Assembly (NCBI RefSeq): GCF_040537815.1 | Contig: NZ_JBEWSZ010000001.1 | Location: 3,100,001 to 3,164,000, forward strand | Reading direction: 5' to 3' | Length of the DNA stretch: 64,000 bases | From: Mesorhizobium shangrilense | Lineage (GTDB): Bacteria; Pseudomonadota; Alphaproteobacteria; Rhizobiales; Rhizobiaceae | Shown: in pieces, positions 9,709 through 55,702 of the stretch | Layout: every line of letters starts with the position of its first letter | Position numbering within the stretch: the stretch's first letter is position 1 | Program-made: the position numbers and the translations under genes | The notes under the pieces: model-generated | The model's input: the letters and a program-made list of their open reading frames with translations, nothing else | What the model was told of the DNA's origin: nothing | Databases searched by the model: none

Positions 9709-9960
9709 ATGGCGATGGCGCGGAAATTCGACATCGGCGATGGCATCAGCCACGTGCAGGCACATCTGCGCCCGGCCGACACCAACACTCACAAAATAAC
9801 AAGCCAGGCAGCCGGTCCGTTCGAGCCTTCAGCCGAGGAAGGCATCAGCCCTACCATGCGCGATGCGCTGGTAACCGGCTTGCTGGTGATCTATCCGGCC
9901 CTCGCCATCGTGGCCGCCATCGTCATCGGGCTTTATCTCGCCGGCGCCAGCGGCGCCTGA
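9709..9960 (+). CDS. Small membrane protein of unknown function
   Basis: An 83-residue protein with a polar N-terminal 50 residues and one C-terminal membrane helix (about residues 54-77, LLVIYPALAIVAAIVIGLYL). A GGGG stretch precedes the ATG at about 8 bases. No domain was recognised. It stands alone between hisS and the convergent tag gene. Coding potential is supported by codon use and the well-formed helix; function is unknown. Confidence 0.6.
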   Translation: MAMARKFDIGDGISHVQAHLRPADTNTHKITSQAAGPFEPSAEEGISPTMRDALVTGLLVIYPALAIVAAIVIGLYLAGASGA

Positions 9961-9992
9961 GATGTGCCGGCCTGCTCCCGCGAGCGCCGCCG

Positions 9993-10628: not shown

Positions 10629-10837
10629 CGCAAAATTCCATTCGTTAAGGCGCTTTGGCGCTGCTTTACTTCGGCTTTACCAGATTCCTGAACCCGGCGG
10701 TAACCACACCAAAAGGTTTACTGACATCTCGGCATTTTACGCATTCCGATTCATGTTTCGGTTGCTGCTCGCCGCCAATGATCGCGACACAAGGGCCCGT
10801 TCCGCCCTGGCATGTTCGACGATCAAGGTGCGTCCCG

Positions 10838-37740: not shown

Positions 37741-37922
37741 TGACGACACGATCCCCCTCCCCGCAAATCCTGACAGGGTCGGCGTCTCGCTTTGCCCAGG
37801 CACAGTGTGATCCCGGGATTGGCCCTTGAACGCTCAAGTCGGACCCGCGTAACATCGCGATATCTGAATTGAGTCTGCTTCATTCGTCCGGGCTAGTGCC
37901 CGGATGGGTCTGGATATTTTCC

Positions 37923-39779: not shown

Positions 39780-41671
39780 TGTCGACACAAAGCGACGACG
39801 AGAAAGACGACACCAGCGGACGGCCGACAAAGGCTGTCGTCGGCTCGCATCGCGACGAGGAAGAGGTTTTTGGCAAAGCCTACGACCCGCGCATTGTCAG
39901 GCGTATCTGGAGTTTCGTGAGGCCGTATCAGGGCAAGATCCTGATCTCGGTCGCCGCGGTGCTGGTGTTCACGCTGACGCAGCTGGCGATCCCGCTGGTC
40001 ATCCGCTACGCCATCGACCATGGCATGGCGGCGGGCAGGCTCGACCAGTCGGTGATGATCTCCGCGATCGGCGCCTTCACGGTGATCATCCTGATCAACT
40101 ATGCCGCCAGCCATGTACAGGAAAGCGTCGTCGGCAAGGTGGCCGAGAATGTGCTGTCAGACCTGCGCCGCGCCATGTTCAGTCATCTGCAGCGGGTGTC
40201 GCTGAGCTTCATGGACAAGACCGAGGTCGGCCGGCTGATGTCGCGCCTGCAAGGTGATGTCAATTCGATGCAGGAGTTCCTCGAGACATCCGTCATGTCG
40301 GTGGGCGACATCGTGCTTTTGTTCGGCATCGTCAGTGTGTTGCTGTGGCTCGATTTCCGGCTTGGGCTGCTGACGCTGTCGACCATGCCGGTGCTGTTCA
40401 TCGTGCGCCTGTTCTGGCTGCCACGCGCCAAGGTCGCCTTCATGGCCGCGCACGAAACCAACTCCATCGCCAACGGGGCGTTGGCCGAAGGCATCCATGG
40501 CGTGCGTACCGTGCAGAGCCTGGAGCGCCAGCATGTCAATTTCGACCTCTACGACGAGAAGGTGCTGGCCAACCTCAACGCCCATCTGCGGTCGGCGAAG
40601 TACGCACAGGTGATGGTGCCGATCGTCGACACGCTGACCGGCATTGCCATGGCGACAGTCATCGTTGTCGGCGGTTCGATGGTGCTCTCGCACAGCCTCG
40701 ACGTCGGCGTCATGGTGGCGTTCCTGTTCTACATCCAGCGCTTCTTCGACCCGATCCGCTCGCTCACCATGCAGTACAGCGTGATGCAACGCGCCATGGC
40801 CTCGGGGCAGCGTATTTCCGAAGTGCTCGACGTGCCGGTGGATGTCAGCGACAAGGAAAACGCCGTGGCGCTGTCGCGCGACATGGATGGCTCGGTCGAG
40901 TTCAGGAATGTCACGTTCGGCTACCGGCAGAACCTGCCGGTGCTGAAGAACATCTCCTTTCGCGTCAATCCGGGCGAGACTGTCGCGCTGGTCGGCCCGA
41001 CCGGATCGGGCAAGTCCAGTTCCATGGCGCTGGTGCACCGCTTCTACGATGTCTGGTCAGGTGAGGTTCTGGTCGGCGGGCACGATGTGCGTGACCTGAC
41101 ACAGGATTCGCTTGGCGACCAGGTGGCCATGGTCCTGCAGGAGCCGTTCCTGTTCTCCGGCTCGGTGCTGGAGAACATCCGCTACCACAAGACCTCGGCC
41201 AGCCGCGAAGAGGTGGTCCGCGCGGCACAGGCCGTCGGCGCGCACGACTTCATCGAGCAGCTGCCCAATGGCTACGACACCGAACTCGAACAGCGTGGCG
41301 GCAATCTCTCGCTCGGCCAGCGCCAGTTGATCAGCTTCGCGCGGGCGCTGGTGGCCGATGCCAAGATCCTTGTGCTCGACGAGGCCACGGCCAGCATCGA
41401 TTCCTACACCGAGATGCTGATCCAGAAGGCGCTGATAAAACTGCTGGAAGGCCGCACCGGTCTCGTCATCGCTCACCGGCTGGCCACCATTCGCGGCGCC
41501 GACCGCATCATCGTCCTGCAGAATGGCGAGATCGTCGAAAGCGGCAACCACGAGCAATTGATGGAAAGAAAAGGCCTCTATGCCCGCCTCTACAACATGA
41601 ACTACGCCTCGTTCGACGACATCGCGGAGGGCGAGATGGAACTGGAAGCGGCGGTCGGCAAGGCGACGTAA
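39779..41671 (+). CDS. ABC exporter half-transporter 2 (canonical Walker B)
   Basis: A 630-residue half-transporter with a charged N-terminus, a six-helix membrane domain (about 45-330) and an ATPase. Walker A is VGPTGSGKSS, Walker B is ILVLDEATASID with the catalytic Glu, and the switch is VIAHRLATI. The signature is changed to LSLGQRQ. Paired with half-transporter 1, one composite site has both defects (Asp for Glu and LSLGQ), and the other is intact. This asymmetry is known from heterodimeric exporters such as TM287/288. The substrate is unknown. Confidence 0.92.
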   Translation: MSTQSDDEKDDTSGRPTKAVVGSHRDEEEVFGKAYDPRIVRRIWSFVRPYQGKILISVAAVLVFTLTQLAIPLVIRYAIDHGMAAGRLDQSVMISAIGAFTVIILINYAASHVQESVVGKVAENVLSDLRRAMFSHLQRVSLSFMDKTEVGRLMSRLQGDVNSMQEFLETSVMSVGDIVLLFGIVSVLLWLDFRLGLLTLSTMPVLFIVRLFWLPRAKVAFMAAHETNSIANGALAEGIHGVRTVQSLERQHVNFDLYDEKVLANLNAHLRSAKYAQVMVPIVDTLTGIAMATVIVVGGSMVLSHSLDVGVMVAFLFYIQRFFDPIRSLTMQYSVMQRAMASGQRISEVLDVPVDVSDKENAVALSRDMDGSVEFRNVTFGYRQNLPVLKNISFRVNPGETVALVGPTGSGKSSSMALVHRFYDVWSGEVLVGGHDVRDLTQDSLGDQVAMVLQEPFLFSGSVLENIRYHKTSASREEVVRAAQAVGAHDFIEQLPNGYDTELEQRGGNLSLGQRQLISFARALVADAKILVLDEATASIDSYTEMLIQKALIKLLEGRTGLVIAHRLATIRGADRIIVLQNGEIVESGNHEQLMERKGLYARLYNMNYASFDDIAEGEMELEAAVGKAT

Positions 41672-41840: not shown

Positions 41841-43307
41841 GTGAAGTTGTTCATTGCCGGGCTGGATACTGAAACCAACACGTTTTCTCCGATACGCACC
41901 GGCCATCACGCATTTGTCGAGGGACAGATCGCGCATGGCGATGCCACGACGAGGCCGCTGAATTGCTGTTCCTCGCAGCTTTTTGTCTGGCGCAATGCGG
42001 CGCGCGACCGCGGCTGGAATGTGGTTGAAAGCCTGTGCGCCGTGGCGGAGCCCGGCGGCACGACGACACGCTCTGTCTACGAGGATTTCCGCGGCGAGAT
42101 CCTGCGCGACCTCAAGGCCGCCATGCCCGTCGACGGAGTACTTCTCGCCCTGCACGGCGCTTGCGTCGCCGAGGGCTATGACGATGTCGAAGGCGATCTT
42201 TTGGCCCATGTCCGGGCGCTGGTCGGACCCGATATTCCCATAGGCGCGGAACTCGACCTGCACTGCCATCTGACTGATCGCATGGTCGAAAACGCCACCA
42301 TGATTGCGGCCTACATGGAATACCCTCACACCGATATCGAGGAACGCGCCGGCCATCTGTTCGAGCTGATGGTCAAGGTGCTGGCGGGAGAAATCCATCC
42401 GGTGATGGCGCTGTTCGATTGCCGCATGATCGGCACCTTCAGGCCTCATCAACAGCCCTTGCGCGGGCTGGTCGACCGGATGAAGGCGCAACAGGGTCGC
42501 GACGGCATTCTGTCGGTATCGTTCGGCCACGGTTTCCCGTGGGGCGATGTCGCCGATGTCGGCGCCAAGATGCTGGTCGTTGCTGATCGCGATGCCAACA
42601 AGGCGCACCAAGTCGCAGCGGCCTTTGGCCGGGAGATCTTCGCCCTGCGCGAAGCGCTCGAGCCTCATCACCTCAGCATCGACGACGCGCTTGATCGCGC
42701 CATGGCGATCGAGGGTGGCCCAGTCGTGCTGGCCGATGTCTCGGACAATGCGGGCGGCGGCGCTCCGGGCGACTCCACCTTCATCATTCGCCGGGTGATC
42801 GAGCGCGGCATACGCGGTGTCGCCAGTTGCCTGTACTGGGATCCGATCGCGGTGCGGCTGTGCCAGGCCGCCGGCGAAGGCGCGACGTTGCCGCTTCGGA
42901 TCGGCGGCAAGATCGGGGCGGCATCGGGCGAACCGATCGACCTCAATGTCACCGTGCGCCGCATCGCTTCAGGCGTTACCCAACGCTTTGGCGTGGTGCC
43001 GCTGCCGATCGGCGACGCCGCCTGGGTCAGCGCCGACGGTATCGATCTGGTGATCAACAGCGTGCGCACGCAAACCTTTCATCCCGAATGCATGACCGCG
43101 CTCGGTCTTGATCCCGCCACCCGCAAGATCGTGATCGTCAAGTCGAGCAACCATTTCCGGGCCGGCTTCGAGCCGATCGCCAGAGACATTCTTTATGTTG
43201 CCGCGCCCGGAGCGCTGCAGCCCAATTTTCGCGATCTGGCATACACCAAGCTGCAACAGCCATACTGGCCGAAGGTCGCGGAACCATTCGCGGAATTGGC
43301 GCTGTAA
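41841..43307 (+). CDS. M81 family metallopeptidase (MlrC-like)
   Basis: A 488-residue member of the M81 family, named from microcystinase C (MlrC), which cleaves linear microcystin fragments containing D-amino acids and Adda. The likely zinc ligands are Asp139 and His141 (ELDLHCHLTDR) and His163 (YMEYPHTDIEERA). The N-terminal MlrC domain opens LFIAGLDTETNTFSP. The C-terminal domain starts near residue 300 with ADVSDNAGGGAPGDSTFIIR. There is no signal peptide, so it acts in the cytoplasm after peptide uptake. It faces the transporter genes convergently. Confidence 0.9.
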   Translation: MKLFIAGLDTETNTFSPIRTGHHAFVEGQIAHGDATTRPLNCCSSQLFVWRNAARDRGWNVVESLCAVAEPGGTTTRSVYEDFRGEILRDLKAAMPVDGVLLALHGACVAEGYDDVEGDLLAHVRALVGPDIPIGAELDLHCHLTDRMVENATMIAAYMEYPHTDIEERAGHLFELMVKVLAGEIHPVMALFDCRMIGTFRPHQQPLRGLVDRMKAQQGRDGILSVSFGHGFPWGDVADVGAKMLVVADRDANKAHQVAAAFGREIFALREALEPHHLSIDDALDRAMAIEGGPVVLADVSDNAGGGAPGDSTFIIRRVIERGIRGVASCLYWDPIAVRLCQAAGEGATLPLRIGGKIGAASGEPIDLNVTVRRIASGVTQRFGVVPLPIGDAAWVSADGIDLVINSVRTQTFHPECMTALGLDPATRKIVIVKSSNHFRAGFEPIARDILYVAAPGALQPNFRDLAYTKLQQPYWPKVAEPFAELAL

Positions 43308-43382
43308 TCAACGCCAAGGTTTAGTGTTCGCAGCGCGGAAACAGGACAGTTCGACCGCCGCGCCCAGCGCCACCATCCGCTT

Positions 43383-44408
43383 TCAGATATCACCCGCCTG
43401 CGCGCGGTGACAGCGCACCGAGCGCGGCCATGCCGCCTTGTCCGACGGTGACATGGCGACGGTTCCGGTACGATCGCCGAATTCGACGAGCGACTGCGGG
43501 CGATCACAGCCGGCTGCGGCAAAGGAGCAGCGGTCGCGATAGTAGCAGCCGGTTGGCAGGATCCTGTTGTTGGGAAGCTCGCCGACACGGGTCGCGGCGA
43601 GTTCGGGCAGCGGGTGCTTGAGGCTCGGAACCGTGGCCAGCAAGGTCCTGGTGTAGGGATGCGCCGGAGAATCGAGCACCTGTACCGCCGGCCCGGCCTC
43701 GACAATCTGGCCAAGATACATCACCGCCACGCGGTCGCAGAAGTGGCGCACCAGCGAAACGTCGTGCGAGATCATCAGATAGGCGAGGCCTAGCTCTCGC
43801 TGAAGTTTCAGCAGCAGGTTGATGATCTGCGCCTGGACGGAGACGTCGAGCGCGGATGTCGGCTCGTCCAGGATCAGCAGATCCGGATCGGTGCTGATCG
43901 CGCGCGCAACGGCGATGCGCTGGCGCTGGCCGCCGGAGAATTCATGCGGGCGCCGGTCGAGGTGTTCGGGCCGCAGGCCGACGGAAGCCGCGAGTTCGGC
44001 GGCACGCGCCCGCAGTTCGGCCTTCGACATTCCGCCGCGCACATGCAGCGGCTCGGTGATCAACCGCCACACAGGCAGGCGCGGATCGAGCGAGGATTGC
44101 GGATCCTGGAACACGATCTGCATCTGCTGGCGGATTTCACGTTTGCGCTTGCCGCGCGCGTCGTGGAAATCCTGACCGTCGATCAGCACCTTGCCCGAAC
44201 TGCGCTCGACGAGGCCGATGATCGCTTGGACGAGCGTGCTCTTGCCGCAGCCGGATTCACCGACGATGCCAAGACTCTCGCCAGGGCGGATTGTCAGGTC
44301 CACCTTATTGACGGCATGAACATGCGAGGTGGCCCCGCCGAACCAGCCGCCGGGAATGGGAAAGTTGACGGTCAGATCCTCGACACTGAGAAGAGGCGCG
44401 GTCGTCAT
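43383..44408 (-). CDS. dppF: Dipeptide/oligopeptide ABC transporter ATPase (DppF type)
   Basis: A 341-residue ATPase. Walker A is GESGCGKSTLVQ, the signature is FSGGQRQRIAVARA, and Walker B is LLILDEPTSALD. The C-terminal oligo_HPY extension has a cysteine set (GCYYRDRCSFAAAGCDRP) that binds an iron-sulfur cluster in related proteins. ATG at 44408 overlaps the dppD stop. It is the last gene of the order binding protein, dppB, dppC, dppD, dppF. Confidence 0.93.
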   Translation of the reverse strand: MTTAPLLSVEDLTVNFPIPGGWFGGATSHVHAVNKVDLTIRPGESLGIVGESGCGKSTLVQAIIGLVERSSGKVLIDGQDFHDARGKRKREIRQQMQIVFQDPQSSLDPRLPVWRLITEPLHVRGGMSKAELRARAAELAASVGLRPEHLDRRPHEFSGGQRQRIAVARAISTDPDLLILDEPTSALDVSVQAQIINLLLKLQRELGLAYLMISHDVSLVRHFCDRVAVMYLGQIVEAGPAVQVLDSPAHPYTRTLLATVPSLKHPLPELAATRVGELPNNRILPTGCYYRDRCSFAAAGCDRPQSLVEFGDRTGTVAMSPSDKAAWPRSVRCHRAQAGDI

Positions 44409-45445
44409 AGCGTGGCCTCGCTCATGATGCTCGATGGTTGGATTGCCCCGCGCCGCCAGCAGGCGACGAGATGCCCGGGAGCGGTCGCCACGGAAGGAGG
44501 CTTTGCCAGGCACTGGTCGTTGGCTTCCGGACAGCGCGGCCGGTAGAAGCAGCCTTGCGGCGGATCAAGCAGGTTGGGCACGGTTCCGGGGATGGCCTCC
44601 AGTTCCGCTTTCGGCTCCACCCGTTCAGGCAGGCAGCGCAGCAGCGCCTGCGTGTAGGGGTGCTGCGGCGCTTCCAGCACCGCCCGCGTCGGGCCGGACT
44701 CGACGATGCGGCCGGCATACATGACGTAGAGCCGGTCGCAGAGCTGCGAGACAACAGCGATATTGTGCGAGATGAAGACGACCGACGTGCCGGTCCGCTT
44801 GGCGCGGTCCAGGATCAGCCGCAGGATCACGGCCTGCACCGTCACGTCCAGGGCTGTCGTCGGCTCGTCGGCGATGATCAGGCCGGGGTTGCACGAGAAA
44901 GCCATGGCGATAAGCACGCGCTGGCGCATGCCGCCCGACAGCTCGAACGGATAGGCCTTCATGATCCGCTCGGGTTCGCCGATCAGCATGTCCTTGAGGA
45001 TGCCGCGCGCGGTGCGCTCGGCCTCCGCCTCGCTGACCGCTTCGTGGCGCTGGATGACGCCGACCAATTGCTTGCCGATGCGGATGGTCGGGTTGAGCGC
45101 GTTCATCGGCTCCTGGAAGATGGTCGAGACCAGCTTGCCCCTGACATCCTGGAGTTCGGTTTCGCCCATGGCGAACGGGTCGCGGCCGAACAGACGGATA
45201 CTGCCGGCGGTGACGCGGTAGCGGCCTTCGGGCAGAAGCCGTGTCGCCGCCATCGTGGTCACCGACTTGCCGCAGCCTGACTCGCCTACGAGGCCGACAA
45301 TCTCGGAGGTACCGATCTCGATCGTCACGTCGTCGAGCGCCTTGATGGCGCCGGCATAGGTCGGGAATTCCAGCGACAGGCCTTCGATAGTCAACGCTGC
45401 GGGTTTTTGCCCGGCGGGCTTCAGGGTTCCGGATGCCACGTCCAT
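44405..45445 (-). CDS. dppD: Dipeptide/oligopeptide ABC transporter ATPase (DppD type)
   Basis: A 346-residue ATPase partner of DppF. Walker A is GESGCGKSVTTMAATRLLP, the signature is LSGGMRQRVLIAMA, and Walker B is LIIADEPTTALDVTVQ. The C-terminal oligo_HPY domain contains PQGCFYRPRCPEANDQC. The ATG at 45445 shares a TGATG junction with dppC, and the frame further upstream is antisense-like and without homology. Powers inward peptide transport with DppF. Confidence 0.93.
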   Translation of the reverse strand: MDVASGTLKPAGQKPAALTIEGLSLEFPTYAGAIKALDDVTIEIGTSEIVGLVGESGCGKSVTTMAATRLLPEGRYRVTAGSIRLFGRDPFAMGETELQDVRGKLVSTIFQEPMNALNPTIRIGKQLVGVIQRHEAVSEAEAERTARGILKDMLIGEPERIMKAYPFELSGGMRQRVLIAMAFSCNPGLIIADEPTTALDVTVQAVILRLILDRAKRTGTSVVFISHNIAVVSQLCDRLYVMYAGRIVESGPTRAVLEAPQHPYTQALLRCLPERVEPKAELEAIPGTVPNLLDPPQGCFYRPRCPEANDQCLAKPPSVATAPGHLVACWRRGAIQPSSIMSEATL

Positions 45446-46341
45446 CACCGTCCTCCCAACCGTGGATCGAGCATGTCGCGGATGCCGTCGCCAAGCAGGT
45501 TGCAGCCCATGGCGGTGATCAGGATGGCAAGGCCGGGGAAAGTGCAGTACCACCATTGGTCGAGGATGTAGTTGCGGCCGGTGCTGACCAGCGCGCCCCA
45601 TTCGGACGTCGGCGGCTGTGCGCCCAGCCCGATGAAGCTCAGGGCGGCTGCGATCAGCACGATGCCGCCGAGGTCGAGCGTTGCCTGCACGATGATCGGC
45701 GACAGCGCGTTGGGCAGGACATGCCAGCGCAGGATGTAGAGCGGCGAAGCGCCGAAGGTGCGCGCCGCCTTGACGAAGACCCGCTCGCGCAAGGACAGCG
45801 TCTGCCCGCGCGCCAGCCGCACATAGGCGGGGATACGCACCAGCGCCACGGCCAGCATCGAGTTGACCAGGCTGGGGCCTAGTGCCGCCGCAAGCGCCAT
45901 GGCCAGAACCAGCGCCGGCAGCGCCATGATGACGTCCATCAGCCTCATGATCGCGGTGTCGATGCGGCCACCCAATATGGCTGACATGCATCCGATCACC
46001 ACACCGACACCTACAGATATCAGGACGATCATGAACGCCGCGACGCATGAGGCGCGCGACCCATAGATGATGCGTGAAAACAGGTCGCGCCCGACCTCGT
46101 CCGTGCCGAACCAGTGCTGCGCGCTCGGCGGTTGCAGACGCGCCGACAGCATCAGCTTGTCGGGATTGTAGGGTGCGATCAGGGGTGCTGCGACGATCAT
46201 GATGATGACCATGACGATGATCGCCGCGCCAACCAGCGTCAGCGGGCTGCGGCGGGACAGGTACCAGAGAAAATGCAGCCGCGACTTCCAGCCCGAAGCG
46301 GCAGGGACGGCCTGTGTCGCGGAAGAGGCCACGCTCATCAT
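45445..46341 (-). CDS. dppC: Dipeptide/oligopeptide ABC transporter permease (DppC type)
   Basis: A 298-residue inner-membrane permease with an N-terminal OppC_N segment and six helices (first about 30-55, LTLVGAAIIVMVIIMIVA). The motif HWFGTDEVGRDLFSRIIYG is diagnostic for DppC/OppC. The EAA loop lies at about residues 200-225 (KAARTFGASPLYILRWHVLP). It forms the channel with DppB, whose gene it overlaps by 4 bases. Confidence 0.94.
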   Translation of the reverse strand: MMSVASSATQAVPAASGWKSRLHFLWYLSRRSPLTLVGAAIIVMVIIMIVAAPLIAPYNPDKLMLSARLQPPSAQHWFGTDEVGRDLFSRIIYGSRASCVAAFMIVLISVGVGVVIGCMSAILGGRIDTAIMRLMDVIMALPALVLAMALAAALGPSLVNSMLAVALVRIPAYVRLARGQTLSLRERVFVKAARTFGASPLYILRWHVLPNALSPIIVQATLDLGGIVLIAAALSFIGLGAQPPTSEWGALVSTGRNYILDQWWYCTFPGLAILITAMGCNLLGDGIRDMLDPRLGGR

Positions 46342-47354
46342 CCGATCTCCCTGATCTGCGGATCGGCGAACATGTAGGCGATGTCGACGATCAGGTTGAT
46401 GAGGACGTAGCCGATCGATGCGACCACGGTGAATCCCATGATCGCGGGAAAATCGAGTGTCTGGATCGAGGTCACGACATAGGTGCCCATGCCCGGCCAG
46501 GCGAATACGGTTTCGGTCAGCACCGCGCCATAGAGAAGGTCGCCCAGCGCCAGGCCAAGCAGGGTGATCGACGGGATCAAGGCGTTTCGCAACGCATGAT
46601 TGAAGATGATGACACGGCGGCGCAGGCCGCTGGCGCGCGCGGTCCGGATGTAGTCCTCCTGGAGCACATCCAGCATCGATGCCCGGATCTGGCGCGTGAT
46701 GACGCCGAGATTGGCGAAGGCAAGCACGAAGGAGGGCAAGATGAGATGCCGCACCGAACTCCAGAACGCGTCCATGCGGCCTTCAAGCAAGGAATCGATC
46801 AGGAAGAAGCCGGTGACGCGCGTTGGCAGGGCAATGCCCATGTCGATGCGTCCGCTGCCGGGCAGGATGTGCAGCTTGGCGTAGAACAGCAGCACCAGCA
46901 CCAGCGCGAACCAGAACACCGGCATCGAAATGCCGCAGACCGAGATGGTGCGCGCCACCTGATCGATCGGGCCGTCCTTGTAGATGGCGGATGCTACGCC
47001 GAGCGGAATGCCGATCACGATCGCCAGGATCAGCGAGATGGCGCCGAGCTCCATCGTCGCTGGCAGGAAGGTGGCGATATCGCCGGCAACCGAGCGGCGC
47101 GTGCGCAGCGAGGTTCCGAGGTCGCCATGCAGCAGGTTGCTGACGTAGATGGTGAACTGGTCCCATACCGGACGGTCGAGCCCGAGGTCGCGCCGCACGC
47201 TCATCAGCGTTTCGGCGCTTGCCCTGTCACCGGCGATCATCCGGGCAGGATCGCCGGGGATCAGGTGGGAAATGATGAAGGTGATGACTGCGACGCCGAA
47301 GACGACGAAGAACAGCATCACGAAGCGGGGAATGATAATGCGCATGATCGTCAT
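46338..47354 (-). CDS. dppB: Dipeptide/oligopeptide ABC transporter permease (DppB type)
   Basis: A 338-residue permease. The first helix is FVMLFFVVFGVAVITFIISH, followed by LIPGDPARMIAG, the usual DppB/OppB N-terminal signature. The EAA-type loop DYIRTARASGLRRRVIIFNH is at about 220-240. The last helices include VVASIGYVLINLIVDIAY. It starts 254 bases after the binding-protein gene, a gap with a short hairpin that may reduce permease expression relative to the binding protein. Confidence 0.94.
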   Translation of the reverse strand: MTIMRIIIPRFVMLFFVVFGVAVITFIISHLIPGDPARMIAGDRASAETLMSVRRDLGLDRPVWDQFTIYVSNLLHGDLGTSLRTRRSVAGDIATFLPATMELGAISLILAIVIGIPLGVASAIYKDGPIDQVARTISVCGISMPVFWFALVLVLLFYAKLHILPGSGRIDMGIALPTRVTGFFLIDSLLEGRMDAFWSSVRHLILPSFVLAFANLGVITRQIRASMLDVLQEDYIRTARASGLRRRVIIFNHALRNALIPSITLLGLALGDLLYGAVLTETVFAWPGMGTYVVTSIQTLDFPAIMGFTVVASIGYVLINLIVDIAYMFADPQIREIG

Positions 47355-47577
47355 GTGAGGTTGGTCCTCGTGGCGCTGCGGGCTTCTTTATGCCTACGGA
47401 ACATGGTGATCGGCAAGGCGTTGCGCCTCACCGACCGTCGGACATTGTTCGACGCTTCCCGGGTTGTTGAGACTGCACGGCCAGACGCTTCCGGCAACCG
47501 ACCGGAAGACATCTGGCGTGACAGCATTCTGCAGAGCAGGGATGCCGAAGATGTCAGGTTCCATATGTGCGACGAAC

Positions 47578-47597
47578 GGGAGCGCCATTGGCGCCCC
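47578..47597 (-). promoter_or_regulatory. Short hairpin between binding-protein gene and dppB
   Basis: On the minus strand GGGGGCGCC and GGCGCTCCC pair around AAT, just after the binding-protein stop. Hairpins at this position in ABC operons commonly stabilise the binding-protein part of the transcript. The remainder of 47355-47608 shows no gene. Confidence 0.35.
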
Positions 47598-47608
47598 CTC
47601 GTACGCGG

Positions 47609-49150
47609 TCATTCCGACTTCGACATGGTGGCGAAGTTGTAGACCTGGATCAGCATCGGATTGTAGACGTAGCCCTTGACCACCGCGCGGCGCGCGAAGA
47701 TGTCGTTCTTCTGCATCAAATAGAGATAGGGAGCGTCCTGCGTCGAGAGCTTCTGTGCCTCGAGATAGAGCTGCTCGCGCTTCGGCTGGTCGATGATGCT
47801 GGCGGCCTCGCGAACAAGGCCGGCGACCTTGGGATTGTTGTAGAAGGCGCGATTGCCCGGGCCGCCCATGCGCTCCGGATCGAACCAGTAGTTCATGAAC
47901 ATGTAGGGGTCGGCGAAATCGGGCGTCCATGCGCCTGGCGCCAAATCGTAGTTGCCGCTCGCCGCCATTTCGCGCTTGGTGGTGTCGGCAACGGCCTGCA
48001 GGTCGAGCTTGATGCCGATGTCGGCCAGGTTGGCCTGCAAGGCGAGACCGACCGGCTCCCAGGCCGTATCGGCTTGCGAGAATGTGTAAGTGAGATGGAT
48101 GTCGGACTTGCCGGCCTCCTTCAACAGCGCTTTGGCCTTTTCGGCATCGTAGCTGTACTGGAAGCCGTTGGGGTCATGCCCCCACATGCCATCGGGAACA
48201 GCACCGCGCATCTGCTCGGCCTGGCCCTGCATGATGCCGTCGACGATGCCCTTGTAATCCACCGCGTAGGAGATCGCCTGGCGCACGCGCACATCATCGA
48301 GCGGCGGCCGTTTGTTGTTCATATAGATGTAGTTGACGTAGAGGCTCGGATTGCTCTCCACAACGATGTTGGAATCGCCTTTCAGCGCGGCGGCCTGGTC
48401 GACCGGAACCTGTTCGATGATATCGGCATCGCCATTGACGAGTTGCAGGCGGCGCGCCGAGATTTCACCGACGGTGCGCACGACAATCTGCTTCAAGGCC
48501 GGAGTCGGGCCGCTGTAGTGCTCGTTGCGGTCGAGCACGACACTCTGGTTTCGTTCCCAGCTGGTGATCTTGTAGGCGCCGCTGCCGGCGGTGTGCTCGG
48601 CCAGCCAGGCCTTGGCCATGTCGCCGTCTTTTTCATGTTCCATCACCTTGGGATTGATGATGGCGGCACCCGAAACGGCCATGGTCGAGAGGAACGGCGC
48701 GAACTGCGACGACAGGATGAACTTGACGGTACCGGGATCGACGACCTGAACTTCCTTCAGCACGGGAAAGGCATCCGAAGGTCCGGCCTTGAGCTTCATC
48801 GCCCGGTCGAAGCTGAACTTGACCGCCGCCGCATCGACATCCGTGCCGTCATCGAATTTGTGGCCCTTGGCCAGCTTGAAGGTCCAGACGGTGTTGGTGT
48901 CGTCGACGGACCAGCTTTCCGCAAGCTCGGGAACGACGTCGGTGGTGGCGCCCTTGTAGGCCACCAGATGCTCGTAGGCTGCGTAGATGAAGGTATAGCC
49001 GCTGTTGCTGATCTCGACGCCGGGGTCCGCGGTCGGCGCGTCCTCCGCTCGGCTGAGAACCAGCACATCCGACGCGGCCCAAGCCGCTTGCGTCAGCGAT
49101 GAGGTGACCAAAAGGGCAAAGCCCAGCTTCTTCCAGTGCGCGAAAACCAT
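47609..49150 (-). CDS. Peptide ABC transporter substrate-binding protein, family 5
   Basis: A 513-residue periplasmic binding protein (DppA/OppA fold). A signal peptide covers about residues 1-25 (HWKKLGFALLVTSSLTQAAW). Family markers are VVPELAESWSVDDTNTVWTF (about 70-90), GHKFDDGTDVDAAAVKFSFD and RQAISYAVDYKGIVDGIM. The ATG at 49150 follows AGAGGGTAGAG; the upstream in-frame stretch has no signal. It defines what the Dpp transporter imports. In this locus the ligand is probably a peptide with D- or unusual residues (inference). Confidence 0.93.
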   Translation of the reverse strand: MVFAHWKKLGFALLVTSSLTQAAWAASDVLVLSRAEDAPTADPGVEISNSGYTFIYAAYEHLVAYKGATTDVVPELAESWSVDDTNTVWTFKLAKGHKFDDGTDVDAAAVKFSFDRAMKLKAGPSDAFPVLKEVQVVDPGTVKFILSSQFAPFLSTMAVSGAAIINPKVMEHEKDGDMAKAWLAEHTAGSGAYKITSWERNQSVVLDRNEHYSGPTPALKQIVVRTVGEISARRLQLVNGDADIIEQVPVDQAAALKGDSNIVVESNPSLYVNYIYMNNKRPPLDDVRVRQAISYAVDYKGIVDGIMQGQAEQMRGAVPDGMWGHDPNGFQYSYDAEKAKALLKEAGKSDIHLTYTFSQADTAWEPVGLALQANLADIGIKLDLQAVADTTKREMAASGNYDLAPGAWTPDFADPYMFMNYWFDPERMGGPGNRAFYNNPKVAGLVREAASIIDQPKREQLYLEAQKLSTQDAPYLYLMQKNDIFARRAVVKGYVYNPMLIQVYNFATMSKSE

Positions 49151-49243
49151 CTCTCTACCCTCTGAGGTTCGGCGGACTCGAACGACGCCTGTTTCCGGCA
49201 ATTTTGTCCGCACGATCAGATTAGGCAACGATTTTCCGAAGCG

Positions 49244-49261
49244 CAACTTATTTTCTTATCG
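49244..49261. promoter_or_regulatory. A/T-rich motif upstream of the binding-protein gene
   Basis: CAACTTATTTTCTTATCG lies about 95 bases upstream of the binding-protein ATG and overlaps the last codons of the XRE-cupin gene. Preceded by TTTTCCGAA, as the M81 promoter motif is preceded by CTTTCCGAA. It is a candidate site for the XRE-cupin regulator. Confidence 0.4.
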
Positions 49262-49952
49262 TACGCGCCACTTGCTCGGTCTTGGCACGTGGCGCCAATT
49301 TTGAAATGGCACTTTCCTCGATCTCGGAAGAGCCGATCGCATCGATCAGATCTTTCTCCGTCGTGGAGCAAATGCAGATGAAGCGCGCCGGCTTCTCGCT
49401 CGCCGTCACGTAGGCATGCCCCATGGTTGCATCAAAATAGACGGAGTCTCCCACCTTCAAGACCACCGGTTCATAGTGCTCGGTGTGGAGCTCAAGTTCT
49501 CCTTCCACCACATAGGTATATTCTTCGCCGACATGGCGGATGAAAGAGCCGAACTCTTCCATCGTTCGGGCGTGCGCCACGCCGAACATCGGGACGATCG
49601 ATTTTTTCGAGATGTCGGTGCACAAATAGAGATAGTCGTAGTTCTTCGTCTTGATGGAGCGGCCATCGCCGGCCCTGCTGATCGTGCGGCGCCCGAGCGG
49701 ACTCGGGCTGGTTTCCGAGGCACGGGTCCCGAACAATTCGACAATGTCGACCTTCAGCCCCTCGGCCAATTGAACGATGCGGTCGTAGGTCAACGACATC
49801 TGGTTGTTTTCAACCTTGGACAGCGTTGATATGGCGAGCCCGGTCATCGCGCTGACTTGCGACAAGGTCCAGTGATTGCGCGTGCGGATTTCCCGCAGGA
49901 AATCGCCCAGGCTGGCTTTCTGATCCGTCATATTCGTTGCCGCATCCCGCAT
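49248..49952 (-). CDS. XRE-family regulator with C-terminal cupin
   Basis: A 234-residue regulator. An N-terminal XRE HTH (about 15-75, TLSQVSAMTGLAISTLSKVE) is fused to a C-terminal cupin_2 domain (about 125-200, EFGSFIRHVGEEYTYVVEGE, VLKVGDSVYFDATMGHAYV). Such proteins often sense a metabolite through the cupin and control amino-acid or amine degradation. It sits between the transporter operon and the divergent FAD oxidoreductase operon, the usual place for a local regulator. Start at 49952 or 49931; neither ribosome site is strong. Confidence 0.9.
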   Translation of the reverse strand: MRDAATNMTDQKASLGDFLREIRTRNHWTLSQVSAMTGLAISTLSKVENNQMSLTYDRIVQLAEGLKVDIVELFGTRASETSPSPLGRRTISRAGDGRSIKTKNYDYLYLCTDISKKSIVPMFGVAHARTMEEFGSFIRHVGEEYTYVVEGELELHTEHYEPVVLKVGDSVYFDATMGHAYVTASEKPARFICICSTTEKDLIDAIGSSEIEESAISKLAPRAKTEQVARTIRK

Positions 49953-50011
49953 TTCAGGTCACCAACGATAGTACACTCTAATTTTTTGCGCGATATGGAA
50001 AACTGCTTGAT

Positions 50012-50030
50012 CTATAGGAAAAATAAGTTT
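50012..50030. promoter_or_regulatory. A/T-rich motif between XRE-cupin and FAD oxidoreductase genes
   Basis: CTATAGGAAAAATAAGTTT here is, on the minus strand, AAACTTATTTTTCCTATAG. This is close to CAACTTATTTTCTTATCG (49244) and AAACATATTTTTATTGATCG (41785). It lies in the divergent promoter region of the regulator and the four-gene catabolic operon. Confidence 0.45.
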
Positions 50031-50057
50031 CTGATGAGACCAATCAGTATCGGGTGA

Positions 50058-51212
50058 ATGATGTTCGACTTTGTTGTGATCGGCGGCGGCATGGCGGGCG
50101 CTTCCGCTGCCTATGAGTTGGCCGATGGCGCGAGCGTCCTGCTGCTCGAGCGAGAAGAGCATTGCGGCTATCACACGACGGGCCGCTCGGCCGCACTCTT
50201 TTCCGAAACCTATGGCAACGCCACCATCCGGTCGCTGACGAGAGCCAGTCGCGGTCTGTATGAGGCGCCACCGGCCGGCTTTGCCGAGCACCCCCTGCTG
50301 ACGCCGCGTCCTGTGCTTTTCATCGCACGCGCCGATCAGGAAGCAAGCATCGCGGATATGGCCGAGATATTCGCGTGGACGGGCGGAAAGCCGTCGCGGG
50401 TTCTCAGTGCCGACGCTGTGCGCGAGCGCGTGCCGATCATGCGTGCCGACTATGTGGCACAGGCCCTCCTCGACGAGACGTCGATGGACATCGACGTCCA
50501 CGCCTTGCATCAAGGTTATCTGCGCGGCGCGCGCGCCCGGGGCGCCCGCATCGCGGTTTCCGCCGAAGTCCTCGATATCGATCGGGATTCCTCCGGCTGG
50601 CGGATCACCACGGCCAGGGAGCAGTTCAAGGCGAGGATCATCGTCAATGCCGGTGGCGCATGGGCCGATACCATCGCTGCCATGGCCGGCGTTGCAACAG
50701 CCGGACTGACGCCGCTGCGACGCACCGCCATGATGCTGGACCTGCCCGATGGCGTTGACGCTTCGTCTTGGCCGCATGTGATCGACGTCGATGAGGAGTT
50801 CTATTTCAAGCCCGATGCCGGGCGGCTTCTGGCGTCGCCGGCGGACGAGACGCAGAGTGAACCTTGTGATGCACAGGCCGATGAGTTTGACATCGCGGTT
50901 GCCATCGACCGCATCCAGCAAGCGGCCGACCTGCCGGTGCGTTCGATTTCGCGCCGCTGGGCGGGCCTGCGCACTTTCGCTGCGGATCGCAGCCCTGTGG
51001 TTGGCTTCGACCCGCGTTGCGAGGACTTCTTCTGGCTGGCAGGCCAGGGCGGCTATGGCATCCAGACTGCCCCGGCGCTGGCCAAGGTGGCCGCCGCACT
51101 GGCCCACCGCAGGCCCATTGCCGACGCTATCCTCGATGCTGGTTTCGATCCCGATGAGGTGTCGCCCGCTCGCGCCGGGATTGGCCGCGCGGCCCATACC
51201 GCCGCCGCATAA
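50058..51212 (+). CDS. DAO-type FAD-dependent oxidoreductase
   Basis: A 384-residue flavoprotein of the D-amino-acid oxidase superfamily. The N-terminal dinucleotide motif is VVIGGGMAGASAAYEL (residues 6-21), followed by HTTGRSAALFSETYG. A late segment ISRRWAGLRTFAADRSPVVG and FWLAGQGGYGIQTAPA completes FAD binding. It likely oxidises a D- or N-substituted amino acid or amine to an oxo acid. First gene of an operon with a PLP enzyme and two D-peptide type hydrolases, which supports a D-amino-acid substrate (inference). Confidence 0.87.
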   Translation: MMFDFVVIGGGMAGASAAYELADGASVLLLEREEHCGYHTTGRSAALFSETYGNATIRSLTRASRGLYEAPPAGFAEHPLLTPRPVLFIARADQEASIADMAEIFAWTGGKPSRVLSADAVRERVPIMRADYVAQALLDETSMDIDVHALHQGYLRGARARGARIAVSAEVLDIDRDSSGWRITTAREQFKARIIVNAGGAWADTIAAMAGVATAGLTPLRRTAMMLDLPDGVDASSWPHVIDVDEEFYFKPDAGRLLASPADETQSEPCDAQADEFDIAVAIDRIQQAADLPVRSISRRWAGLRTFAADRSPVVGFDPRCEDFFWLAGQGGYGIQTAPALAKVAAALAHRRPIADAILDAGFDPDEVSPARAGIGRAAHTAAA

Positions 51213-51235
51213 CTCTGATCCGGGGGAGATCATCA

Positions 51236-52498
51236 ATGGCCTTCAATCTTGACGCACTGGCGTCGGTTGCCCTGGACGACAGCATCAAGGGCATTCCGTT
51301 CGGCGCCAGGCTCAGGCTCGCCGATGTCGCCGATCAAGGCTGGAATTTGCTTTCCGGCGACCTGCCGCTGCCCGCTGCGATCATCCGCGCCGACGCGCTG
51401 GCGCACAATTCGCGCTGGATGCAACGTTTCGTCGCCGAGCGCGGCGCGCTGATTGCCCCGCACGTCAAGACGACGATGTGCCCGCAGATCATCGCCCGCC
51501 AGATCGCCGATGGTGCCTGGGCTGTGACCGTCGCGACGGTCCAGCAGATGCAGGTCTGCCGCGGCTTCGGCGCGGAGCGCATCATCCTCGCCAATCAGGC
51601 GGTCGGACGGCTGGAACTCGATGCGATCGCCGCCATGGTCGGGGAACCCGACCTCGATTTCATGATGATCATCGACAGCGCCGCCGGCATCGAGGCGGCA
51701 GCAGAAGCGGTGCGGCGCAACCAGCTTGACCGCCCGCTGCAACTGCTTCTCGAACGCGGCTACCCAGGCGGCCGCACCGGCTGCCGGACCAATGACAGCG
51801 CGCTTACCCTTGCCAGGCAGATACGCGCCACACCGGGGCTTCGCCTTGTCGGGATCGAGGCCTTCGAGGGCCTGATAAAGGCAGAAAACGGGTCGGCCGA
51901 GCAGGCGGTCGGACTTTTCATGGATGAAATCGCCGCGCTCTTTGGCCTTTGCGCGGATGAAGGTCTGTTCGAGAGCGACGCGCCGCTGGTCACCGCCGGC
52001 GGCTCCTCCTACTACGATATCGTCATCGACAGGCTGGCGCAGTGCGGCGCCCGCGTGGTGACGAGAAGCGGCTGTTACGTCACGCATGATTCCGGGCTTT
52101 ACCAGAGTGCCCACCAACGCCTGCAGGCCAAGACCGGCGAGCAGGACGGCCTGCGCCGTGCGCTGGAAATCTGGGCCTATGTGCAGTCGATTCCTGAGCC
52201 AGGACTTGCCCTGCTGACGGCCGGCCGGCGCGACTGCGGAACGGATTCGGGATTTCCGGTGCCGCTCCTCCTGTCCCGCGCAGGCGCCCATCCGCAGGAC
52301 TTGCCGTCGGGATGCGAAGTGATCAACCTCAACGATCAGCACGCTTACATGCGCTTCCCGGCCGATCTGCGGCTTGCCGTCGGCGACCGTGTCGGGCTCG
52401 GCATTTCCCATCCATGCACGACGTTCGACAAATGGCAGATCATCTACCTTGTCGACAGTGACTACAGGGTGGTGGAAGCCATGAAGACCTACTTCTGA
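51236..52498 (+). CDS. D-threonine aldolase/D-serine dehydratase-fold PLP enzyme
   Basis: A 420-residue fold-type III PLP enzyme. The N-terminal alanine-racemase-like barrel carries the PLP lysine Lys78 in APHVKTTMCP. The C-terminal DSD1-like domain has the zinc ligands, a His in NDQHAYMRF and a Cys in SHPCTTFD. Related enzymes deaminate D-serine or cleave D-threonine, and several annotated amino-acid deaminases belong here. It follows the FAD oxidoreductase by 24 bases (GGGGGAGATCATCA before the ATG). It fits removal of free D-amino acids released by the peptidases. Confidence 0.88.
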   Translation: MAFNLDALASVALDDSIKGIPFGARLRLADVADQGWNLLSGDLPLPAAIIRADALAHNSRWMQRFVAERGALIAPHVKTTMCPQIIARQIADGAWAVTVATVQQMQVCRGFGAERIILANQAVGRLELDAIAAMVGEPDLDFMMIIDSAAGIEAAAEAVRRNQLDRPLQLLLERGYPGGRTGCRTNDSALTLARQIRATPGLRLVGIEAFEGLIKAENGSAEQAVGLFMDEIAALFGLCADEGLFESDAPLVTAGGSSYYDIVIDRLAQCGARVVTRSGCYVTHDSGLYQSAHQRLQAKTGEQDGLRRALEIWAYVQSIPEPGLALLTAGRRDCGTDSGFPVPLLLSRAGAHPQDLPSGCEVINLNDQHAYMRFPADLRLAVGDRVGLGISHPCTTFDKWQIIYLVDSDYRVVEAMKTYF

Positions 52499-52557
52499 AG
52501 CTTCTCGCGGCGATGTCCTGTTGATTGCTTCCGATTGATATTGCGAGGAGACCACCG

Positions 52558-54228
52558 ATGAGCCGACTTTCCGCCGCCGCAGTCGAACTGTTCGAGGACC
52601 TGATCCGCCAGCAGGTCGAGGACAAGGCGATCCCCTCCATCTCCTATGGCCTTGTCGACCGCGACGGGCTGATGGCCGCGGGCCATATCCAGCGTCATGA
52701 CCGTGGCTTCGCCATGGGCGACGACACCTGTTTCCGGATCGGCTCGATCACCAAGACATTCACCGCCCTGTCGATCATGCAGCTTGCCGAAAAAGGGCTT
52801 GTCGATCTCGATGCCGACGTCTGCGAATACCTACCGGGCTTCAAGCCGCTCAACCCGTTCGCCGGGCGCGAAGGCGGTCCCCATGGCGCGCGGATCAGCC
52901 TGCGCAAGCTGCTGAGCCACACCGCCGGCCTCGTGCGCGAGCCCAAGAGCGGCCACTATCTCGACGCAGCGCGGCCGCCGCTGGCCGACACCGTGGCCGA
53001 ACTCGCCAGCTCGACGCTAAAACAGGATCCGAGCCTGGGACAGATGCATTACTCCAATGCCGGCATTGCCGTGGCCGGAAGGGTCATCGAGACGGTGACG
53101 GGCAAGAGCTACGCCGAATACGTCACCGATCATATGCTGAAGCCGCTTGGCATGGACCGGACCTCGTCGGGCCTGGCGCCAGGCATCGCCGAGCGGCTCG
53201 CGCCCGCCGACATGTGGACGCTGGACGGCGACAGCCCCGCTCCCGTGTTCGACCTTGGCGGTCCGCCGGCCGGCAACATCTATTCCACCATTGGCGACAT
53301 GGCCCGCTATGCCCAGTGCCTGCTGCGCGGCGGCTTCGCGCCGGATGGCCGGGCGATCGCATCGCCCGCCTCATTGCGCGAGATGTGGGTGCCGATCGGC
53401 AAGCGCGCCTCCGGAGAAAGGGTGGCGAACACCTATGGCCTGTGTTTCGGTGTCGGCGATGTCGATGGCTGGACCTCCGTCGGCCATGGTGGCGCCGTCT
53501 ATGGCTACGCCTCGCAGATGATCCTGCTGCCCGCCGCCGGCGTCGGCGTGCTGATCTTCTCGACGCTGGATTTCTCCAACCAGATCGGCGCGCGGCTTGG
53601 CGTCGAGGGGCTGCGCATCGCGCTGGCCGAACGCCGGATGGGTACGCTGCCGTCGCGGCGGCAGAGCCTGCCTGCCGTCGCCGCCGACCAGCTTGCGGCA
53701 CTGCCCGGCCACTACCGGCACGAAACTTCCGGCGAGGTCGTCGAGGTCAAGGCCAAGGGCGGCAAGCTCTATCTGATGGGCGAAGGCGTGCCGTTGCAGA
53801 TCCGCCCGGTCGCCGGTTCGGATTTCACCATTGACGGGCGCATCTATGGACGCGACGCCGAATATCCACACATGAAGCTGTCATTCCCCGCTCCCGGCGC
53901 GCTGGTGTGGAAGGCAGCGAACTGGTCACGCATTGAGGCACTGCCCACTGAGATAGTGCCGGCCGAGATTGCGCCGCATCTCGGCGAATACGGCCCGGAT
54001 TTCAACGTCACCTATCTCAGCTACAGCCATGGCGAGCTGAAATGCCTGATAGAGTATTTCTGCACGCACAGCTGTGAGCCGGAGGAGGCCGGGCGCTATC
54101 GCATGCATGGCATCCTGTACGAGGAAGAAATCCTCGAACTCGACGCCGTCGACGATCACGGCCGGCGCGGCATCCGGGTCGGCCCGATGTTCCTCGAGCG
54201 CCGGCCCGCTGCAAAAGCGAGCGGCTGA
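52558..54228 (+). CDS. Beta-lactamase-fold serine hydrolase (class C type), possible D-aminopeptidase
   Basis: A 556-residue protein with an N-terminal serine beta-lactamase-like domain. The nucleophile motif SxxK is Ser63-Lys66 (GSITKTF), YxN is Tyr165-Asn167 (HYSNAGI), and the third motif is VGHGGAVYGY (about 310). The last 200 residues form beta-barrel-like domains, as in D-aminopeptidase DAP and related esterases. No signal peptide is seen, so it acts in the cytoplasm. Not a resistance enzyme by context. AGGAGACCACCG precedes the ATG. Confidence 0.86.
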   Translation: MSRLSAAAVELFEDLIRQQVEDKAIPSISYGLVDRDGLMAAGHIQRHDRGFAMGDDTCFRIGSITKTFTALSIMQLAEKGLVDLDADVCEYLPGFKPLNPFAGREGGPHGARISLRKLLSHTAGLVREPKSGHYLDAARPPLADTVAELASSTLKQDPSLGQMHYSNAGIAVAGRVIETVTGKSYAEYVTDHMLKPLGMDRTSSGLAPGIAERLAPADMWTLDGDSPAPVFDLGGPPAGNIYSTIGDMARYAQCLLRGGFAPDGRAIASPASLREMWVPIGKRASGERVANTYGLCFGVGDVDGWTSVGHGGAVYGYASQMILLPAAGVGVLIFSTLDFSNQIGARLGVEGLRIALAERRMGTLPSRRQSLPAVAADQLAALPGHYRHETSGEVVEVKAKGGKLYLMGEGVPLQIRPVAGSDFTIDGRIYGRDAEYPHMKLSFPAPGALVWKAANWSRIEALPTEIVPAEIAPHLGEYGPDFNVTYLSYSHGELKCLIEYFCTHSCEPEEAGRYRMHGILYEEEILELDAVDDHGRRGIRVGPMFLERRPAAKASG

Positions 54229-54315
54229 TGGTGCCTACAAAGCATTCGCCCAAGCAAATCGACCAGCTGCCGACGTCGATGACCGGGCTTCTTTAACATC
54301 CAGGGAGGACAGACA

Positions 54316-55113
54316 ATGAAGGTATTCATCAGCGCCGATATCGAAGGCACCGCCGGCATCACCAATTGGGACGAGGCCAAGAAGGGCAATCCCGACTATG
54401 CCGAGTTTCGCGAATACATGACCGACGAACTGGTCGCCGCCTGTGAGGGCGCGAAGGCGGCTGGCGCCACCGAAGTGGTGGTGAAGGACGCGCACTCCAC
54501 CGCGCGCAACCTCATCCTGTCGAGGCTGCCGGACTATGTCCGCATCGTGCGCGGCTGGAGCGGCCACCCCGACATGATGATGTTCGGCATCGACGACAGC
54601 TTCGCCGCCGCACTCTACACCGGCTACCACAACAAGGCGGGGACGGACACCAACCCGCTGGCGCATACCTTGACCGGCACCGTCTCGCGGCTGCTGATCA
54701 ATGGCGAGGTCGCCTCGGAATACACGCTGAACGCGCTCTGCGCGGCACGCTACCGCGTGCCTTCGGTGTTCCTGAGTGGCGACGCCGGCATGTGCGCCGA
54801 AGCGAAGGTTCTGGTGCCGGCCATCGGCACGGTGGCGACCAGCGAAGGATTTGGCCCGGCGACCTCATCGATGACGCCTGGAGCCGCAGTCAAGGCGATC
54901 CGCAACGGGGTCGAAGCGGCACTGTCACGCGACCTCTCGGTCTGCCTACCCCCGCTCGCCGACAGCTTCGAACTGGTGGTCGAATACACCACGCCGATCG
55001 AAGCCTATCGGGCCAGCTGGTACCCGGGCGTCGAGCACGTCGCGGCGCGCACGCTCCGCTTCAAGGCAACGGATTTCTTCGACATCCAGCGCGCGGTCCG
55101 TTTCATCGTCTGA
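54316..55113 (+). CDS. dppA: M55 family D-aminopeptidase (DppA type)
   Basis: A 265-residue zinc peptidase like Bacillus subtilis DppA, which frees D-Ala and Gly from D-containing peptides. Zinc ligands correspond to Asp8 and Glu10 (ISADIEGTAG), His60 (KDAHSTARN), His105 (GYHNKAG) and a Glu in NGEVASE. Length is normal for the family. GGAGGACAGACA precedes the ATG. The gene name follows the Bacillus enzyme and must not be confused with the enterobacterial DppA binding protein. Last gene of the catabolic operon. Confidence 0.9.
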   Translation: MKVFISADIEGTAGITNWDEAKKGNPDYAEFREYMTDELVAACEGAKAAGATEVVVKDAHSTARNLILSRLPDYVRIVRGWSGHPDMMMFGIDDSFAAALYTGYHNKAGTDTNPLAHTLTGTVSRLLINGEVASEYTLNALCAARYRVPSVFLSGDAGMCAEAKVLVPAIGTVATSEGFGPATSSMTPGAAVKAIRNGVEAALSRDLSVCLPPLADSFELVVEYTTPIEAYRASWYPGVEHVAARTLRFKATDFFDIQRAVRFIV

Positions 55114-55541: not shown

Positions 55542-55702
55542 GCGAGAAACATCTCGGCAGGCAGCTGCGAACCCGGCGCACCCACGCCGCAAAAAAAACA
55601 AAGTCCGCTCCCGGCTATACGATCGGTAGCCGATAGGAGAAGATGCCTCGACGGCTTCCGTTCGCGATGCCGGTGAACCAAATCGGCTTGATCGGGACGA
55701 AA

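Follow-up and report, generated by a model that had tools for sequence, protein, structure and literature searches.

A block of eleven genes at positions 41841-55113 of a 64,000-nucleotide stretch of Mesorhizobium shangrilense DNA (assembly GCF_040537815.1, contig NZ_JBEWSZ010000001.1, positions 3,100,001 to 3,164,000 of the forward strand; hereafter the window) is a real conserved unit, more than a group of chance neighbors, because the same gene order is found in three other genomes and the genes co-occur strongly. We consider it probable, from gene content and active-site residues, that the block works as a single catabolic unit whose substrates are small peptides containing D-amino acids. 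In the scheme that we propose a family-5 solute-binding protein (SBP) would catch a D-residue peptide in the periplasm and DppBCDF would import it; in the cytoplasm an S12 hydrolase, resembling DL-peptidases and D-aminopeptidases, would cut the peptide together with M55 and M81 peptidases; a metal-dependent pyridoxal phosphate (PLP) enzyme would deaminate the β-hydroxy D-amino acids D-Ser or D-Thr, giving 2-oxo acids and ammonia, and a DauA-like flavin adenine dinucleotide (FAD) dehydrogenase would oxidize neutral D-amino acids. An XRE-cupin protein probably represses the adjoining divergent promoters until it senses a pathway compound. The scheme draws on the families of the genes, their active-site residues, how they co-occur and how they are ordered, and from these we infer the substrate class, the cell compartment, the sequence of steps and the regulation.

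All eleven genes are open and intact, ten of them placed around the one regulator, and every encoded protein has a Pfam match over the cut-off, so that the layout and the families named in an earlier reading of the window's letters (the original prediction) stand. The features are as follows, with lengths in amino acids (aa).

41841..43307, + strand: M81 / MlrC-family zinc metallopeptidase, 488 aa; PF07364 + PF07171 (DUF1485/M81 + MlrC_C); PDB 7ylq, E=1.3e-101
43383..44408, - strand: DppF-type importer ATPase, 341 aa; PF00005 + PF08352 (ABC_tran + oligo_HPY)
44405..45445, - strand: DppD-type importer ATPase, 346 aa; PF00005 + PF08352 (ABC_tran + oligo_HPY)
45445..46341, - strand: DppC-type permease, 298 aa; PF00528 (BPD_transp_1) + PF12911
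46338..47354, - strand: DppB-type permease, 338 aa; PF00528 (BPD_transp_1) + PF19300
47609..49150, - strand: family-5 SBP, 513 aa; PF00496 (SBP_bac_5)
49248..49952, - strand: XRE-cupin regulator, 234 aa; PF01381 + PF07883 (HTH_3 + Cupin_2)
50012..50037, no strand: candidate operator in the XRE/FAD divergent promoter, two overlapping opposite-strand matches with GAAA-N6-TTTC half-sites; weak statistics
50058..51212, + strand: DauA-like FAD D-amino-acid dehydrogenase, 384 aa; PF01266 (DAO); PDB 3nyc, E=1.9e-93
51236..52498, + strand: fold-III PLP enzyme, D-serine-deaminase-like, 420 aa; PF14031 + PF01168 (D-ser_dehydrat + Ala_racemase_N); PDB 3gwq, E=4.8e-96
52558..54228, + strand: S12 serine hydrolase, 556 aa; PF00144 (Beta-lactamase)
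54316..55113, + strand: M55 DppA-type D-aminopeptidase, 265 aa; PF04951 (Peptidase_M55); PDB 1hi9 (B. subtilis DppA), E=3e-27

The start of the SBP was placed at the ATG at 49150 in preference to an upstream TTG given in the list of open reading frames (ORFs). The dppBCDF genes overlap by 1 to 4 bases and the gaps in the FAD-PLP-S12-M55 run are 23, 59 and 87 bases, which fits a pair of operons running outward from the region between the XRE-cupin and FAD genes.

Conservation and two-module build

The window's order of all eleven genes is repeated in genomes G156, G091 and G076 (our handles, with C for contigs and L for loci) at protein identities of 87-100%, with one extra gene inserted between S12 and M55 in G091 and G076. 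Relatives of S12 at E <= 1e-100 were found in 13 of the 146 genomes of the genus and in 13 of the 394 genomes of a family sample (G000, the genome of the window, and G095 are common to the two), and in the window's own genome as the only one of 385 in a class-wide sample; at E <= 1e-60 it is again the only one of 61 genomes in a sample of relatives, and at E <= 1e-80 there are matches in 11 of 72,556 plasmid records (9 Ensifer, 1 Ochrobactrum and 1 Nitratireductor). At most three first-look candidates were scored per genome in the class and family samples. M81 (at least 65% identity), the SBP (at least 66%) and the PLP enzyme (at least 60%) are each present in 11/146 genus genomes, the same 11 for all three and all of them among the 13 with S12; in addition there is one 53% copy of the SBP, in G069, and there are seven PLP relatives at 46-51%. 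M55 at 82% identity or above occurs in 13/146 genomes, 12 of these with S12, a count that leaves out rows at 58-65% identity and a truncated 94% match in G020. Hypergeometric probabilities for the co-occurrence are 1e-15 to 1e-14, with genomes taken as independent, which they are not. Among the best 80 S12 loci listed, only 7 are close relatives (62-76%); the remaining 73 are generic S12 proteins (26-34%) and enter none of the counts. L011, at 4.3 kb, did not offer enough sequence for a map, and L007-L010, L012, L013 and the plasmid records stand outside the genus counts.

It is scarcely credible that the genes are neighbors by chance. Flanking genes do vary between genomes and the block lies at different sites, as chance would allow, against which stand the identical order in 4 genomes and the identical genome sets for three genes; the conserved block already refutes this explanation. 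Four of five window neighbors tested recur in G156 and none in the stretches from G076 and G091 (for the latter, whose contig ends upstream, on the downstream side only), and given these differing flanks the block seems to move as one piece. The original prediction had itself proposed a neighborhood comparison, naming an order not conserved in relatives as the outcome that would count against it, and both the order in G156, G091 and G076 and the co-occurrence come out in its favor.

In relatives the genes fall into two modules. Module A consists of M81, a Dpp importer, the XRE-cupin and PLP genes and usually FAD, while module B consists of a second Dpp importer, LysR, S12, often a BioF/Kbl-like enzyme, and M55. 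The window contains module A plus S12-M55, with one importer and no second one. In G142, G138, G141, G145, G082 and G132 the set is found at 50-88% identity, rearranged, together with a second, different Dpp-type importer and LysR upstream of S12; S12, PLP, M81 and the importer are present in G153. G069 and G095 carry S12-M55 and the second importer with no module A nearby, a 49% PLP relative lying beside S12-M55 in G095. Outside the genus, where 9 of 11 family-level matches were fetched (G898 and G926 were left out), the second importer, LysR, S12 and the extra gene are present in 9/9 genomes and M55 in 8/9 (seven at 85-89%, G767 at 63%). The extra gene encodes a BioF/Kbl-family PLP enzyme of ~365 aa that falls below every listed equivalog cut-off; it occupies the S12-M55 gap of many relatives (G091:C217, G076:C1, L009, L010 and others) and is absent from the window and from G156. 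In G076 it is in pieces (map around 20.0-21.1 kb, L103/L104).

Two elements of the original prediction are unsupported or weakened in the light of these maps. It had called the locus complete, whereas relatives add the second Dpp importer, LysR and often the BioF/Kbl-like enzyme, and it had treated the FAD gene as a core member, whereas that gene is present in 8/11 module-A loci only (it was not found in the fetched stretches of G142, G082 and G153) and its family is spread over 66/146 genus genomes.

The maps also include a distant module-A-like run in G893 (L147, L148), from another genus, close to module B at the far end of the 40-kb map, in which M81 is 49%, the Dpp-type genes 40-47% and an S12 relative 27% identical. 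In G128 (L168:7166-16005) an M55 gene 82% identical to that of the window stands beside a Dpp-type importer and an enolase-superfamily gene, the latter 31% identical to the Nitratireductor epimerase relative discussed below, with genes further along that by eye resemble Tn7-type transposition genes. Directly upstream of M81 in the window (37869-41671) lies a pair of neighboring ABC transporter genes that both, as read by eye, include a fused ATPase domain; the pair is kept beside the locus in G156 and was not found in the G076 stretch. A 330-aa ORF at 55643-56635, after M55, is unmatched in the stretch from G156, in which M55 is directly followed by the gene that comes after this ORF in the window, an apparent insertion or loss relative to G156. 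The genome of the window holds four M81/MlrC-type genes, among them one ~14 kb before the window start (G000:C1:3085909-3086442), as well as a second M55 gene (G000:C2:681821-682606, 64% identical), around which, within 40 kb, the locus's other proteins have only distant ATPase and LysR matches.

Active sites of the peptidases and probable D-amino-acid enzymes

In the S12 hydrolase the SxxK motif (S63, K66) and Y165-S-N167 are invariant in 16/16 aligned proteins, and in the third motif, HxG, H310 and G312 are kept in 15/16 and the middle Gly in 13/16 (one row gapped, two Ser). The predicted model has a mainly beta C-terminal region beyond the catalytic domain, completing the feature set of a D-aminopeptidase (DAP), namely SxxK, YxN, HxG and extra C-terminal domains. 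Its top solved fold is the Paenibacillus DL-peptidase Lip3 (9sn1), aligned over model residues 1-552, and the Ochrobactrum anthropi DAP (1ei5) is at Foldseek rank 9 with a 583-column alignment; both have an S12 catalytic fold and additional C-terminal domains, as does the model, with an identity of only 17-21% over the fold alignments. We rejected a beta-lactamase identity, since every class C model listed has a cut-off far above the score of the protein and the N-terminus is not signal-like. Along with the conserved partners, these points make it very improbable that S12 serves beta-lactam resistance or a cell-wall penicillin-binding protein function with the other genes unrelated, an explanation to which its place in the Beta-lactamase Pfam family lends itself.

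M55 matches PF04951 with 288.9 bits (cut-off 25) and keeps all six of D8, E10, H60, H104, H115 and E133 of DppA, which we take to be the metal and catalytic residues of that enzyme. M81 keeps the zinc ligands of MlrC as E11, D139, H141 and H163 (MlrC E39, D167, H169 and H191), and four of ten MlrC substrate-site residues, N41, D341, S392 and R492. Ligands, substrate site and the proposed general base E70 are those given in PMC9982164 which, like the other papers cited here, we draw on in excerpt.

The PLP enzyme has a His392/Cys394 metal pair within a His-Pro-Cys motif that is invariant in 10/10 aligned proteins, the alignment used being the version without an unrelated DsdA protein. His with Cys is the metal pair of D-serine dehydratase, and His with Asp that of D-threonine aldolase, according to the excerpt of PMC4401734, where His with Cys is given also for a predicted aldolase/racemase. 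By its residues the enzyme is thus of the metal-dependent fold-III D-serine dehydratase type, with a predicted conversion of D-Ser to pyruvate; a strict D-threonine aldolase is ruled out by His-Cys in place of His-Asp, and BhcC by a score of 69.8 bits against an NCBIfam cut-off of 690. The FAD enzyme matches the structure of D-arginine dehydrogenase (PDB 3nyc, E-value as listed above). Of the DauA active-site residues named in the excerpt of PMC11193025 it keeps R222 and R305, which bind the carboxylate, as well as Y53, E246 and Y249 (position 249 is Tyr in the window enzyme and Phe in the aligned chain 6p9d); H48 is lost, and E87, which contacts the Arg side chain, is replaced by V86, so that we regard the enzyme as DauA-like and reject specificity for D-arginine.

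The best hints of D-residue substrates come from the gene content of a related locus in Nitratireductor sp. OM-1. Beside an importer of module-A type (49-61% identical) there is a DsdA D-serine ammonia-lyase that lies over both NCBIfam cut-offs, and S12 is followed by a dipeptide-epimerase relative; no M55 was found in this locus.

Predicted uptake, compartment and regulation

In E. coli DppA, Asp436 holds the amino group of the ligand and Arg383 its carboxylate (PMC12136057, in excerpt), and the former is kept in the SBP as Asp413 (numbering of the 515-aa translation). The retained Asp would suit a general scavenging of di- and tripeptides, with ordinary L-peptides as the imported substrates and only side functions for the D-acting genes, as would the fact that the Pseudomonas aeruginosa PsdR-Dpp-MdpA unit is assembled from the same types of part, XRE-cupin, Dpp importer and metallopeptidase (excerpt of PMC7901475). 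We hold such scavenging to be quite improbable, since the PLP, M55, S12 and mostly also the FAD genes, relatives of D-amino-acid enzymes, share genomes with the importer, and DsdA and an epimerase relative are present in the Nitratireductor locus. Inspection of N-termini by eye and with a crude hydropathy scan shows a signal-peptide-like start for the SBP and none for M81, S12, M55 and PLP.

The XRE-cupin regulator adjoins both enzyme and transporter genes, the arrangement of a local functional unit of such proteins. Pseudomonas XRE-cupin proteins repress their neighbors, and PsdR directly represses dppA3 and mdpA (PMC7901475, same excerpt). A site similar to the candidate operator at 50012-50037 recurs in rearranged relatives, at the SBP promoter in seven genomes and at the XRE/FAD promoter in three, and in G141 a 14-mer is common to these promoter sites. 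A weight matrix built from the relatives' sites only, chosen by eye, gives its two highest scores in the 64-kb window to the two sites at 50012-50037; when bases were shuffled inside 200-base blocks 1/20 windows exceeded the best site and 3/20 the second. That the XRE-cupin protein governs the entire block is, from these sites, plausible as a proposal.

Candidate substrates and related systems

A number of observations weigh against the assignment of the block to D-peptides. S12 falls below the cut-off of the D-aminopeptidase NCBIfam model NF009622 (29 vs 443 bits) and so belongs to a different S12 subfamily; Pab87 is tied with Lip3 as its nearest fold, and esterases and other beta-lactamase-fold enzymes match it about equally well. 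M55 scores 141.7 bits against a cut-off of 430 for the Bacillus DppA model NF058634, which makes it a member of the family and not the Bacillus DppA equivalog. M81 reaches 372.6 of 999 bits for the MlrC model NF041767 and lacks six of the ten MlrC substrate-site residues, W59, F67, the proposed base E70, F96, Q468 and S485. In the SBP, DppA Arg383 is replaced by Thr364 (515-aa numbering), so that the Asp-Arg pair of DppA-type dipeptide binding is incomplete and plain DppA-style binding is doubtful. The hydropathy scan fails to separate the SBP from the FAD enzyme, the Nitratireductor epimerase relative lies below its cut-offs (its best model gives 214 bits against a required 500), and the matrix scan singled out neither the M81 nor the SBP promoter of the window. 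As to distribution, G128 has M55 and G020 a truncated 94% M55 without S12, and no M55, XRE-cupin or FAD gene was found in the 40 kb fetched from G153. The M81 frame is split in G156 (map 9274-10735, L100), and M81 may therefore be dispensable; this split and the fragmented BioF/Kbl-like gene of G076 reflect either decay or assembly error. Finally, the BioF/Kbl-like enzyme of relatives fits nowhere in the proposed scheme.

Two narrower explanations overlap with the preferred one. Scavenging of cell-wall peptides that contain D-Ala or D-Glu, a sub-case of a D-peptide pathway, is unlikely, if a real possibility: in other bacteria both M55 enzymes and dipeptide epimerases have ties to murein peptides. 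AmpG, moreover, is lacking in Rhizobiales (PMC9790009, abstract). The same abstract, however, assigns peptidoglycan recycling in Rhizobiales to YejBEF-YepA, whereas the locus is accessory (11-13/146 genomes); there is no sugar or muramic-acid enzyme among the eleven genes by Pfam, and ordinary peptidoglycan offers no evident role for D-Ser deamination. A role in consuming or detoxifying a natural product with D-residues, such as a lipopeptide or microcystin-like compound, in place of small generic peptides is in part also a sub-case and is rather unlikely. Lip3, the top fold for S12, is described as a DL-peptidase acting on the lipopeptide syringafactin, the mlr microcystin cluster likewise pairs an SxxK serine enzyme, MlrB, with the M81 relative MlrC (PMC4810221, in excerpt), and S12 has an accessory, in part plasmid-borne distribution. 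Against this stand the six MlrC residues not kept in M81, for which we rejected a microcystin-specific M81, and the hydrolases themselves, which look cytoplasmic by our crude test, so that a large lipopeptide would need to be imported by a Dpp-type system. The microcystin analogy of the original prediction thus extends to the zinc ligands and stops short of the substrate site and its proposed general base.

We return to the D-peptide pathway as the preferred explanation. The D-amino-acid chemistry that had been predicted is strengthened by the DauA-like FAD enzyme, the dehydratase-type metal pair of the PLP enzyme, the six DppA residues in M55 and the DsdA and epimerase relative of the related locus. 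Of the claim that joined the genes into one D-residue peptide pathway, the single unit, conserved and co-occurring, has held, and a D-residue peptide is its probable substrate.

Loci in which a Dpp importer accompanies a D-peptidase are already known. Bacillus subtilis dppABCDE combines an M55 D-aminopeptidase with a dipeptide ABC importer and has, to our knowledge, no M81, S12, PLP, FAD or XRE-cupin genes; the E. coli ddpXABCDF locus for D-Ala-D-Ala combines a Dpp-type importer with a D,D-dipeptidase, DdpX, from another family. In P. aeruginosa psdR-dppA3/mdpA an XRE-cupin regulator that represses its neighbors lies beside Dpp-type uptake and a metallopeptidase, MdpA, called a metallodipeptidase and induced by X-Pro dipeptides; the excerpt of PMC7901475 names no M55, S12, D-amino-acid dehydrogenase or dehydratase there. 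The sphingomonad mlr cluster directs MlrB and M81-type MlrC at a peptide with unusual and D-residues, and the excerpts of PMC4810221 and PMC9982164 mention neither an ABC importer nor M55 or a D-amino-acid enzyme. For the combination of genes found here, its two-module build and its enzyme replacements no described equivalent was seen among the matches listed in the open-licence literature, in agreement with the original prediction, which knew of no system with the full set.

Tentatively, and with doubt as to whether it holds in full, the comparison suggests a modular, horizontally moving D-residue-peptide pathway served by two distinct Dpp-type importers. Unrelated enzymes may fill the same slot in it, the D-peptide being handled by either M55 or a dipeptide epimerase and D-Ser by either DsdA or a metal-dependent PLP enzyme of fold III; a new S12 subfamily would be the signature, and an unusual amino acid released from the peptide would be processed by the BioF/Kbl-like enzyme that many relatives carry. 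Cell-wall and non-ribosomal peptides with D-amino acids resist many ordinary proteases, and the reuse of D-amino-acid peptides by soil and root bacteria is poorly mapped. If the D-peptide assignment is true, the locus would give a substrate class to an S12 subfamily that is without one, as well as to genes now named only 'amino acid deaminase' or 'serine hydrolase', and would allow feeding on D-peptides to be tested cleanly by genetics in rhizobia.

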